From Caminibacter mediatlanticus TB-2 (GTDB lineage: Bacteria > Campylobacterota > Campylobacteria > Campylobacterales > Nautiliaceae): 64,000 bases of DNA. The stretch's first letter is position 1. Each line of letters opens with the position of its first letter. The stretch covers positions 670,001-734,000 of the forward strand of contig NZ_CP040463.1 of NCBI RefSeq assembly GCF_005843985.1, written 5' to 3'. Position numbers and translations under genes: made by a program. The notes beneath the pieces were generated by a model. The model made no database searches and had not been told where the DNA came from. It saw only the letters and a program-made list of their open reading frames with translations. Positions 15,743 through 35,792 of this stretch are shown here, piece after piece.

Positions 15743-17908
15743 ATGAAAGAAATTGTAAAAAGTGTTGAAAAAAAATTAAAAGAGTTAAATAAGTATGATA
15801 GTGAAGTTATGAAAATTATCGAAGATAGTTTTGAGAGTTGTGTCTCTTTTTATTCTCAAAGAGATGGGATAATTTTATTAAATAGTGAAAATGAAATTAT
15901 TAGTATTGATGATAGATTTAAAGATTGGTTTAAAATTGATATTGAAAAATTTATAAATAAAAAATTTTGTACATTATTTGATGAGAGTATTTCTGTATTT
16001 GTTGAAGAGTTTTTAAAAGAGGTAGAAGATAAAAGGTTTTTAGAGAAAAACAGTATGTTTATAAAAATTGGTAGGGTAAAAAAGCATTTAGATTTAAAAA
16101 TAGAAATTTTAGAAATTAATAAAAAAGTTTATAAGTTAGTTATTTTTAAAGATAAAGAATTTGATTATATTAATTATCAATTAAGTTTTATTGAAAAAAA
16201 AGTTGATAATATAATAGTAAGAATTAAAGACTTTAAAATATTAATGCAAGAACTTGTAAATATTTTTGTTGAATCAAATTTATTTGATGCTGCTTGGGTT
16301 GGAAAAATTGATAGAGAATTTAAAAAAGTAATACCAATTGTTACTACAATGGAGTATAAAGAGTTTGATTTTGATGAGATATCTCATGTTGTTGAAGTGT
16401 TATTTAAAAAAAATGAAATAATTTTTGAAAATGAGAAAGGATACAAAACAGAGATTATTTTTCCTCTTTTTAAAAGATGGGATTATAAAAATAGTGATGA
16501 AATTGTGTATGTAGTATTAGTTTTTTCAAAAGAAAAGATTATTTTTAAAGATAGCGAAACATATAGACTAAGAGAAATTATTTATAAAATAAATGTTGCA
16601 ATTTCTGATTTAATGCTAAAACAAGAAGCTCAAAACTTAATCTTAAAAGACCCTCTTACTAATACTTATCTTAGAAAAGTTTTAATAGAAAAAATGAAAG
16701 AGTATATTGATGATAAAATACCTTTTGCATTTGTTTTGATTGATATTGATAAATTAAGTAGAGTAAATGACGTATTAGGATTTTGGGCAGGAGATGAGGT
16801 TTTAAAGAAGTTAGCAAATTATTTAAATGATTTAAATGCTTTTATTTCAAGATATGGTAGTGATGAGTTTGGGCTTATTATAAAAGGAGATAAAGAAAAA
16901 GTATATAAAGAACTTGATAAATTAATAAAATTTAATGACAATTTATTAAAAATTAATGGTTCTACTCTTTTTATGCCAATTTCAATTAGTGTAGGTTTTT
17001 TTCCTGAAGATGCCTCAAAATTGGAAGAGCTTATTTTAAAAACAGAAAAAGCTTTAAAAGAAGCAAAGAAAAAAGGTGGAAATAAAATAGAATATGTTAG
17101 TGAAAATCTCAATTTACTTCCAAAAGATTATTTAGAAATTCAAAAAGAGTTAAAAGAAGCTATTATTAATGATGAATATGTTATGTATTATCAACCAATT
17201 ATTGATATTAAAAATAAAAAAGTTTGGGGAGTAGAAGCTCTTCTTAGATGGAAATCAAAAAAAAGAGGATTAGTAAGTCCAGCTAAATTTATTCCTATTT
17301 TAGAAGAGAGTGGATTAATTAATGAAGTAGGAGACATTGTAATTGATAAAGTAATTGATAGTTTAAAAGAATTTGAAGAATATAATTTACATATTGCTTT
17401 TTCACTTAATCTTTCTGTTACCCAGCTTCTTAGTAAAAATATTGCAAGAGAGATTATTAAAAAATGTGATAAGAAAAAAATAAATAAGGAAAAATTAGTA
17501 GTAGAAATTACAGAAAGTGTATTAATGGAGAATTTGGAAATCTTGAATGTCCAACTTGAAGAGTTTAAAAAAAATAATATAAAAGTAGAGATAGATGATT
17601 TTGGGACAGGATATTCTTCATTAGCTTATTTAAAAAGAATCCCTGTTTATGCCTTAAAAATTGATAGAGAATTTGTAAAAGATATTTTAGTAGATGAAGA
17701 GGATTTATCAATTGTAGATGCAATTATTTCTATTGCAAAATCACTAAAAAAAGAAACTATTGCCGAAGGTGTTGAAGAAAAAGAGCAATTTTTAAAATTA
17801 AATGATATGGGAGTTGATAAAATTCAAGGATATTACTTTGCAAAACCAATGCCAAAAGAAGAGTTAATTAAATATTTAGAAGAATTTGATTTTAATAAAT
17901 TTTTATAA
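15743..17908 (+). CDS. GGDEF-EAL protein, probable c-di-GMP phosphodiesterase
   Basis: 721 residues, cytoplasmic. N-terminal PAS-like region (about 40-140, IILLNSENEIISIDDRF), a middle region that may be GAF-like, then GGDEF (about 300-450) and EAL (about 465-715). The GGDEF signature is SRYGSDEFGL, i.e. GSDEF, with the start DPLTNTYLRK; activity as a cyclase is doubtful. The EAL half keeps WGVEALLRWKS, ISFSLNLSV-type Asn (AFSLNLSVTQL), VVEITESVL, IDDFGTGYSSLAYLKRI, KIDREFVKDI and AEGVEEKEQ, so phosphodiesterase activity is likely. Follows the soluble receptor by 15 bases. Confidence 0.9.
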   Translation: MKEIVKSVEKKLKELNKYDSEVMKIIEDSFESCVSFYSQRDGIILLNSENEIISIDDRFKDWFKIDIEKFINKKFCTLFDESISVFVEEFLKEVEDKRFLEKNSMFIKIGRVKKHLDLKIEILEINKKVYKLVIFKDKEFDYINYQLSFIEKKVDNIIVRIKDFKILMQELVNIFVESNLFDAAWVGKIDREFKKVIPIVTTMEYKEFDFDEISHVVEVLFKKNEIIFENEKGYKTEIIFPLFKRWDYKNSDEIVYVVLVFSKEKIIFKDSETYRLREIIYKINVAISDLMLKQEAQNLILKDPLTNTYLRKVLIEKMKEYIDDKIPFAFVLIDIDKLSRVNDVLGFWAGDEVLKKLANYLNDLNAFISRYGSDEFGLIIKGDKEKVYKELDKLIKFNDNLLKINGSTLFMPISISVGFFPEDASKLEELILKTEKALKEAKKKGGNKIEYVSENLNLLPKDYLEIQKELKEAIINDEYVMYYQPIIDIKNKKVWGVEALLRWKSKKRGLVSPAKFIPILEESGLINEVGDIVIDKVIDSLKEFEEYNLHIAFSLNLSVTQLLSKNIAREIIKKCDKKKINKEKLVVEITESVLMENLEILNVQLEEFKKNNIKVEIDDFGTGYSSLAYLKRIPVYALKIDREFVKDILVDEEDLSIVDAIISIAKSLKKETIAEGVEEKEQFLKLNDMGVDKIQGYYFAKPMPKEELIKYLEEFDFNKFL

Positions 17909-17930
17909 TATAATTTCATTTCAAAAAAAG

Positions 17931-17979
17931 TATGCCTCCTTGCTCCGGCATAGGGGCTAAAAAGCCAGAAGGAGATTTA
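17931..17979 (+). promoter_or_regulatory. rpsF leader: candidate S6:S18-binding RNA (translational autoregulation)
   Basis: The leader folds as P1 CTCCTT (17936-17941) with AAGGAG (17969-17974), which is the Shine-Dalgarno sequence of rpsF, and P2 GGCT (17955-17958) with AGCC (17963-17966). An unpaired 5'-side stretch between them holds CCG (17945-17947). This is the arrangement described for the S6:S18 leader motif, where the S6-S18 pair binds a CCG-bearing bulge and represses rpsF. An alternative hairpin, TATGCC (17931-17936) with GGCATA (17947-17952), would free the SD. Confidence 0.7.
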
Positions 17980-18315
17980 ATGAGTTTAAGACATTACGAA
18001 ACTATGGTTATTGTAAAGCCTACATTAACTGATGAAGAAAAAGAAGCAATTATTGAGAATATTAAAAAAGTAATTAGTGAATTTAAAGGTGAAGTTGTTG
18101 CAGTTGATAATATTGGTGTAAGAGAGTTAGCATATCCGATTGAAAAATTTGAAAGAGGACATTATTATATAATTTATTATAAAGCACCAGCAGAAGCTGT
18201 AATTGAACTTGAAAGACAACTAAGATATAATGAAGAAGTTTTGAGATTTATGACAGTTAAATACGAAACAAAAAAAGATATCAAACGCTGGGAAGAGATG
18301 GCAAAAAATGTTTAA
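17980..18315 (+). CDS. rpsF: 30S ribosomal protein S6
   Basis: 111 residues starting MSLRHYETMVIVKPTL. ATG 17980 is chosen because AAGGAG lies 5 bases upstream and the S6 family begins here; an in-frame upstream ATG at 17932 would run through the regulatory leader. Contains NIGVRELAYPIEKFERGHYY and the C-terminal LRFMTVKYE. S6 binds with S18 to the 30S platform. Followed by ssb and rpsR, the classic order, with rpsF and ssb overlapping by 8 bases. Confidence 0.97.
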   Translation: MSLRHYETMVIVKPTLTDEEKEAIIENIKKVISEFKGEVVAVDNIGVRELAYPIEKFERGHYYIIYYKAPAEAVIELERQLRYNEEVLRFMTVKYETKKDIKRWEEMAKNV

Positions 18316-18751
18316 TAAAGTTATTCTCATCGGTAATTTAACAAGAGATGTAGAACTTAGATATACTCCAAATGGAACTGCTATTGCAAAATTTGGACTT
18401 GCTACAAATAGGACATTTAAAGATAATGTAACCGGTGAGAATAAACAAGAAGTAATGTTTATTGATATTACTGTATTTGGTAGAAGTGCTGAAATTGCTA
18501 ATCAGTATTTAGGTAAAGGCAGAAGAGTTTTAATTGAAGGAAGATTAGTTTTTGACCAATGGGTTGATAGTACAGGTCAAAAAAGAAGCAAACATTCAAT
18601 TGTAGCTGAGAGGGTTCAATTTATGGACTCAAAAGCAAGTGCAGATGAAAGTATGAATGCTGGTTATACACCAGCTCCAAAACAAGAGATGCCACAAAAA
18701 AATCAAGACATTCCATCTATTGATATAGATGATGATGAATTACCATTTTAA
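18308..18751 (+). CDS. ssb: single-stranded DNA-binding protein
   Basis: 147 residues: OB-fold start [21 protein letters not shown], then [20 protein letters not shown] and [20 protein letters not shown], a flexible middle, and the acidic tip DIDDDELPF that recruits replication and repair proteins. Binds ssDNA as a tetramer. Sits between rpsF and rpsR as in many bacteria. Confidence 0.97.
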
Positions 18752-18762
18752 AAGGATGTAAC

Positions 18763-19044
18763 ATGGCAGCAGATCCAAAGAAAAAATATGGAAAAAAAAG
18801 ATGTAAATATTGTGAAATGAAAGTTGATTATATTGGGTATAAAGATTTAGAACTAATTAAATATTCTTTATCTGAAAGATATAAAATTATGCCAAGAAGA
18901 TTAACTGGTACTTGTAAAAAACATCAAGATATGGTTCAAAAAGCAATAAAAAGAGCAAGACAAGTAGCATTAATACCTTATGTTGTAGATAGAAAAAGAG
19001 TTATTGAAAATCCATTTGATGCTATTAAGCCACTTAAAGGGTAA
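18763..19044 (+). CDS. rpsR: 30S ribosomal protein S18
   Basis: 93 residues: [18 protein letters not shown], then [20 protein letters not shown] and [13 protein letters not shown]. Two Cys pairs or Cys/His (CKYC, CKKH) suggest the zinc-binding form. Partner of S6 in the ribosome and, with it, in the predicted leader regulation. Third gene of the operon, 11 bases after ssb. Confidence 0.97.
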
Positions 19045-34990: not shown

Positions 34991-35792
34991 TTTTATTAAT
35001 TTATTAGTAGAAGAGATAAAATCTGTAATAGAAGGATTAACAGGTTTTTCTCCTGAGGTAGAGATAAAACAACAGGGTGAGAAAATAGTAGATATTATTC
35101 CTCCTTTTATTAAAGTAAACGTCTCTGTCTCACCAAAAGGAGAAATTGTTTTTATTTTAACTCCTGAGATAGCTACTGCACTTGGTGATATGATGCTTGG
35201 AGGAGAAGGAGAAGCAAGAACAGATATCAATGATGAAGATTTAGATGCGACAAAAGAGATAGTTTCTAATATTTTTGGTTCATTAACTTCTACACTTGAA
35301 GCACAAGATAATATGGAAAATTTAACTTTTAAGGTAGAAGATATTGCTTTTGTTGAAACAAACGAAGATTTTTCTAAATATGCATATTTTTTAGATTTAA
35401 TATGTAAAGTTTCAAGTATTGAAAAAGAGTGTTTTGTTTTATTTGATAAAGATTTTGTTTCAATTTTTAATAATGACATTAAAGATAAAATCAGTGAATC
35501 TTCACATGAATTAAATAAAGAGATTCCTTCACAACTTGATATGTTAATGGATGTCAAACTTCAACTTCGAGTTAGAATAGGTAAAAAAACTATGCTTTTA
35601 AAAGATGTTATATCTATGGATATTGGTAGTATTGTAGAACTTGACCAACTTGCAAATGAACCACTTGATATATTAATTGAAGATAAAAAAATAGGAGAAG
35701 GTGAAGTTGTAATTGTTGATGGTAACTTTGGAATTCAAATAACTTCAATAGGAAGTAAAGCTGATAGACTTAATTCAATGAAGAAAAGTTAA
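34983..35792 (+). CDS. fliY: flagellar motor switch protein FliY (FliN-type)
   Basis: 269 residues: an N-terminal CheC-like part (about 35-170, LTPEIATALGDMMLGGEGEA) and a C-terminal SpoA/FliN domain (about 180-262, KLQLRVRIGKKTMLLKDVIS, SIVELDQLANEPLDILIEDK, VVIVDGNFGIQITSI). In Campylobacterota FliY works beside FliM and FliN in the C-ring. No DPDDxxx-type active CheC phosphatase motif was recognised. Last gene of the flagellar operon. Confidence 0.9.
   Translation: MNDFINLLVEEIKSVIEGLTGFSPEVEIKQQGEKIVDIIPPFIKVNVSVSPKGEIVFILTPEIATALGDMMLGGEGEARTDINDEDLDATKEIVSNIFGSLTSTLEAQDNMENLTFKVEDIAFVETNEDFSKYAYFLDLICKVSSIEKECFVLFDKDFVSIFNNDIKDKISESSHELNKEIPSQLDMLMDVKLQLRVRIGKKTMLLKDVISMDIGSIVELDQLANEPLDILIEDKKIGEGEVVIVDGNFGIQITSIGSKADRLNSMKKS

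Follow-up and report, generated by a model that had tools for sequence, protein, structure and literature searches.

The window analyzed here, a stretch of 64,000 nucleotides from Caminibacter mediatlanticus TB-2, carries the genes for ribosomal proteins S6 (rpsF) and S18 (rpsR), with ssb lying between them. The genes of the locus and the likely promoter are as follows:

15743-17908, GGDEF-EAL gene, the upstream neighbor of the rpsF leader
17886-17914, + strand, likely rpsF promoter TTGATT-17-TATAAT, with the -10 box TATAAT at 17909-17914 (pattern scan, 10 of 12 consensus positions)
17980-18315, + strand, rpsF, ribosomal protein S6 (Pfam PF01250, 2.8e-32)
18308-18751, + strand, ssb (Pfam PF00436, 1.1e-36)
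18763-19044, + strand, rpsR, ribosomal protein S18 (Pfam PF01084, 6.7e-22)

The Pfam matches bear out the original prediction of an autoregulatory leader at this site insofar as it placed both rpsF and rpsR in the downstream operon. The rpsF and ssb genes overlap by 8 bases, and a gap of 11 bases separates ssb from the start of rpsR. The comparison set consisted of 103 rpsF leaders of the Campylobacterota order to which the host belongs, including 20 of its own family, Nautiliaceae. At all 103 loci ssb is found downstream of rpsF, and at 100 of them rpsR is as well; of the three without it, at least two run into a contig end. The window's 23S gene seems to have no 16S gene upstream of it, but this proved to be an effect of masked sequence in the genome record.

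The leader region comprises the 71 bases between the end of the GGDEF-EAL gene (17908) and the rpsF ATG at 17980, and the sequence between the promoter and rpsF reads CCTCCTTGCTCCGGCATAGGGGCTAAAAAGCCAGAAGGAGATTTA. A TATAAT-like box is present 21–34 nt 5′ of the CCTTGC motif in each of the 20 Nautiliaceae leaders. Judging from the position of the promoter, transcription of rpsF would begin near 17921, with a predicted 5′ UTR of approximately 58–60 nt made up mostly of the leader motif. Within this 5′ UTR the motif lies immediately upstream of rpsF, whose operon includes rpsR.

An in-frame ATG at 17932 would lengthen S6 by 16 residues and could mislead gene callers. If S6 started there the region would be coding rather than leader, and the frame is indeed open from 17932 to 18315. 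This reading is hardly credible, given that no Shine-Dalgarno (SD) sequence lies upstream of 17932, that the relatives examined either lack the upstream ATG or have it in another frame, and that the pairing in this region covaries.

The two helices of the leader

The leader of the window is composed of the following elements:

17936-17941, + strand, 5′ strand of helix H1, CUCCUU (anti-SD), pairing with the SD; these pairs are kept across 75 distinct leaders
17942-17946, + strand, 5′ strand of helix H2, GCUCC, covarying with 17953-17957 and matching it in the arm-matching test
17947-17952, + strand, H2 loop GGCAUA, which varies in length and sequence between species (alignment A4)
17953-17957, + strand, 3′ strand of H2, GGGGC, covarying with 17942-17946 and matching it in the arm-matching test
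17958-17968, + strand, bulge of the 3′ strand, UAAAAAGCCAG, the proposed S18-binding element, from the conservation of CC(A) and the same placement in Escherichia coli
17969-17974, + strand, Shine-Dalgarno AAGGAG, the 3′ strand of H1, from its sequence and the H1 pairing

H2 directly adjoins H1, and the bulge is situated between the 3′ strand of H2 and the SD. Almost all of the 103 leaders share this layout: an anti-SD CCUU (UCUU in some families), then a hairpin of the form GCUC...GGGC, then a bulge of about 6–12 bases ending in CCA plus one base, and finally the SD. Two families have longer leaders. Those of f4 (L035, L041, L042, L064, L067, L068 and L074) have the anti-SD CUCUUU and a sub-hairpin inside H2. 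Those of f16 (L069, L076, L079 and L098) have extra hairpins, and in them an AAGAGG-type SD seems to be paired with a more distant CUCUU.

The fold made up of H1 and H2 is conserved and covaries. In a covariance-model alignment of 77 leaders (75 of them distinct), which leans towards the model, there were 120 double-changed cells over the 14 pairs of H1 and H2, nearly all of them in H2, compared to 38.4±4.5 in shuffled controls and at most 41 in slid versions. An unfitted MAFFT alignment of 20 leaders gave 26 double-changed cells for the two helices, compared to 10.0±2.7 for shuffles and no more than 9 for slid versions. In a test that is free of alignment, the mean run of H2 was 6.45 pairs, and it fell to 3.69±0.14 when arms were swapped between leaders. 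H1 shows four double changes from C-G to U-A at one pair, and in family f6 there is a compensatory change in which UUCUU is accompanied by AAGAA. The window leader taken alone folds no better than its shuffles (z from -0.6 to -1.2); the case therefore rests on comparison.

The strings named in the original prediction are all present. CTCCTT (17936-17941) is the complement of AAGGAG (17969-17974), which stands a short way 5′ of the ATG at 17980; GGCT (17955-17958) can pair with AGCC (17963-17966); CCG occurs at 17945-17947; and TATGCC (17931-17936) is perfectly complementary to GGCATA (17947-17952). With the H1 pairs kept across relatives, the sequences support the core of that prediction, a probable S6:S18-type autoregulatory leader in which the SD is paired. 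Covariance support in related genomes, on which the prediction had staked itself, was found, and it falls on H2 and not on the inner helix GGCT/AGCC that had been proposed. H1 together with the latter gave 10 double-changed cells compared to 8.1±2.3 in shuffles, and a second test gave 1 compared to 0.7. The right arm of this hairpin contains the true conserved CC at 17965-17966.

Covariance searches and known S6:S18 leaders

A search of the host genome with the covariance model R1 returned one match, exactly before rpsF (E 3.1e-8). Across the order, 68 of 100 genomes had R1 matches, and the strongest of these lay immediately 5′ of rpsF; on the scale of whole genomes the model misses f4, most of f9, f15 and f16. 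Two further matches were discarded. One, a second R1 match in the window at 35100-35150 (18.3 bits, E 0.053), is attributed to chance, as it aligned without H2 in what appears to be coding sequence; the other, a further hit of the DNA sequence elsewhere in the host genome, consists of just an SD and a gene start before a frame resembling serine hydroxymethyltransferase (glyA). The plasmid collection that was searched gave no match. In the 5 kb around E. coli rpsF, R1 matched nothing but the proven leader of that gene (13.2 bits, E 0.056), a weak match that is exactly placed.

The original prediction had proposed a search with the Rfam model of the S6:S18 leader. That model, RF02893 (RpsF_leader; gathering threshold 37 bits), finds neither the window leader nor anything else in the host genome, and it also misses 20 other loci of the order, although the layout of its E. 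coli member is that of the window leader. The E. coli leader, which served as the positive control, scored 110 bits, and among 14 control genomes E. coli was the only one with matches. RF02893 is silent on the window leader because the model is narrow, and the missing Rfam match therefore says little.

An S6:S18 leader, or S6:S18 complex-binding motif, was reportedly described by Matelska in 2013 and by Fu in 2014. The published consensus for the class was taken here from PMC4647458, PMC10931766 and PMC7247131. The S6:S18 leader of rpsF is widespread, and regulation by the E. coli leader is abolished or weakened by mutation of a cytosine pair, of the H1 pairing or of H2 (Babina, 2015; PMC4647458). 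The parts of the E. coli leader occur in the order UCCUU, H2, UGAAUAAUCCG and UAAGGAG, which matches the window leader. The UCCG that precedes UAAGGAG in E. coli is taken to contain the two cytosines that, when mutated, abolish regulation (PMC4647458).

The Campylobacterota leader shares with the widespread one its position directly before rpsF, the SD within H1, the H2 hairpin, the operon containing rpsF and rpsR, a cytosine pair in a 3′-strand bulge that adjoins H1, and a likeness to the S18 site of 16S rRNA. It differs in having A in place of G as the third base of this bulge motif, which holds for nearly all of the Campylobacterota leaders that were checked, in the short H2 of the window, and in an operon that carries ssb and not priB. 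As far as its sequence tells, the window leader is a member of the widespread S6:S18 class: apart from the G of CCG, it shows every structural feature tested. The S6:S18 leader of the Chlorobi has the same predicted ligand and lies in the same type of operon (rpsF, ssb, rpsR), but it has been described as unlike the rRNA site, which the window leader does resemble (Eckert et al., 2020; PMC7247131). No description of the Campylobacterota form was found in the literature searched, a search from which Matelska 2013 and Fu 2014 fell outside.

H1 covers the SD and might by itself act as an RNA thermometer or as a passive brake that has no protein ligand. The Nautiliaceae are a thermophilic family, which would suit a thermometer. 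H2 and the CC(A) bulge, however, are both conserved, and neither of them touches the SD. The motif is, moreover, found at rpsF throughout an order and has the layout of the proven E. coli leader, and this alternative is considered quite improbable.

The bulge and the S18 site of 16S rRNA

The conserved cytosine pair of the window leader, at 17965-17966, is on the 3′ strand and is followed by A. The bulge has this CCA in approximately 96 of the 103 leaders, a figure made up of 88 counted directly and eight leaders of f6 and f16, with an offset SD, that were read by eye. The remainder comprises five leaders of f9 with CUA, one UCA and one CCG, so that the pair itself is lost in these f9 leaders (CU) and in the single UC. 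The full CCG trinucleotide of the consensus is not present in the bulge of the window, which has CCA instead. The experimental weight, in the literature consulted (PMC4647458), is on the CC pair; the missing CCG is for this reason regarded as variation inside the class and not as a defining failure.

The original prediction had S18 read a different CCG, that at 17945-17947, as an open site in the 5′ strand. These three bases are the last two of the 5′ strand of H2 and the first of its loop, and the trinucleotide has been lost in most of the closest relatives, where CCA or CCU is found.

Residues K60 and R63 of S18 contact the CC pair, which imitates C719/C720 of 16S rRNA (PMC4647458). In the host, the 16S sequence GGAGGAACACCAGUGG may be set against the leader bulge AAAAGCCAG; CCAG is common to the leader and the host 16S (AACACCAGUGG), and by this comparison the bulge resembles the S18 site. 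By analogy, the cytosines at 17965-17966 are proposed to correspond to C719/C720 of 16S rRNA and to the two that were mutated in the leader of E. coli. The S18 of the window keeps the residues matching E. coli K60, R61, R63, Y23 and K24 (AIKRAR and YKD in the alignment).

The idea that the third base of the bulge motif tracks the third base in 16S rRNA was considered and dropped. It holds for the host (CCA in both) and for E. coli (CCG in both), but breaks in other families; in f4 and f20, for example, the 16S has CCG and the leader CCA. The letters of leader and 16S do not track across families, and no co-evolution is therefore claimed. In f9 (L032, L033, L044, L065 and L073) the bulge is mostly CUA and the sampled 16S has CCG, a natural exception to the CC pair. 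In f14 (L142 and L143) the 16S has AAUACUCAUUG at the S18 site, where the other sampled families have ACC; its triplet is CUC, and the leader has CCA.

Alternative folds and the proposed mode of repression

The SD of the window leader can also be left free, in an alternative fold of about equal stability (-14.4 vs. -14.0 kcal/mol). In the original prediction the SD-free state was a hairpin of TATGCC with GGCATA that covered the CCG at 17945-17947 and served as the on-state, opposed to an off-state with the inner hairpin GGCT/AGCC. The component strings can all pair, and an SD-free fold is, as noted, near-degenerate in energy. The competing hairpin reaches its full 6 bp only in the window; L020 has 5 bp of it, and none of the other 18 Nautiliaceae leaders has more than 3 bp. 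When the loop and the upstream flank of the window leader were shuffled, 33% of the versions had an SD-free state that equaled or bettered the real one. This two-state switch is therefore unsupported. Together with the lack of covariation in the inner hairpin and the loss of the CCG in most close relatives, these results make the leader as first drawn very improbable.

A different two-state element, specific to the Nautiliaceae, has been considered as an addition to the H1 and H2 reading and not as a replacement. Here the anti-SD would pair with the 3′ strand of H2 (GCCUC/GGGGC, enclosing a UUGC(U)/(A)GCA(A) hairpin) and so leave the SD free; S6:S18 would tip the RNA towards the form with H1 and H2. 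At 37°C most Nautiliaceae leaders are predicted to have this alternative as their best fold or nearly so, about as stable as H1 with H2, and in most of them the H2 loop contains a GC-containing complement of UUGCU. The mean on-minus-off free energy is 0.25 kcal/mol for the real Nautiliaceae leaders compared to 1.48 with shuffled loops. On the other side, a mean of 0.27 of the shuffles are at least as good, the leaders are those of close relatives, L007 shows the opposite trend, and pairing with a G-rich H2 strand is open to any anti-SD. From these folding predictions the Nautiliaceae leader may be bistable, though we regard an element of this kind as unlikely. The combination of a true bistable switch in Nautiliaceae with a shift from CCG to CCA in Campylobacterota and a matching change in the way S18 reads the bulge is less likely still. 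In L022, another member of Nautiliaceae, the alternative fold is a continuous hairpin of 9 bp with a UCCG loop: about 45 bases before rpsF, GCUCCUUGC-UCCG-GUAAGGGGC would compete with H1 and H2, and it is the strongest candidate for bistability in the set.

The reading preferred here is that the leader with H1 and H2 is a site at which the S6:S18 complex represses the translation of rpsF and, by coupling, of ssb and rpsR, with a probability of roughly 0.87. For the window leader we infer binding, repression and coupling as follows. In the repressed form H1 would sequester the rpsF SD, with H2 stacked alongside, while the cytosine pair 17965-17966 would be on display in the bulge that separates H2 from the SD. 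An S6:S18 dimer present in excess over 16S rRNA would bind the leader as an imitation of its rRNA site and would stabilize H1, blocking initiation at rpsF. Through translational coupling, the expression of ssb and rpsR would be lowered too.

These findings extend the S6:S18 leader class, with evidence from covariation, over an order of Campylobacterota that is invisible to the current Rfam model, and the leader alignment could seed a broader one. With the putative S18-recognition element now placed on the proper strand, it is clear which mutant an experiment should use. The difference between CCA and CCG, along with the family that has CUA, provides natural variants with which the reading of the bulge by S18 may be tested.
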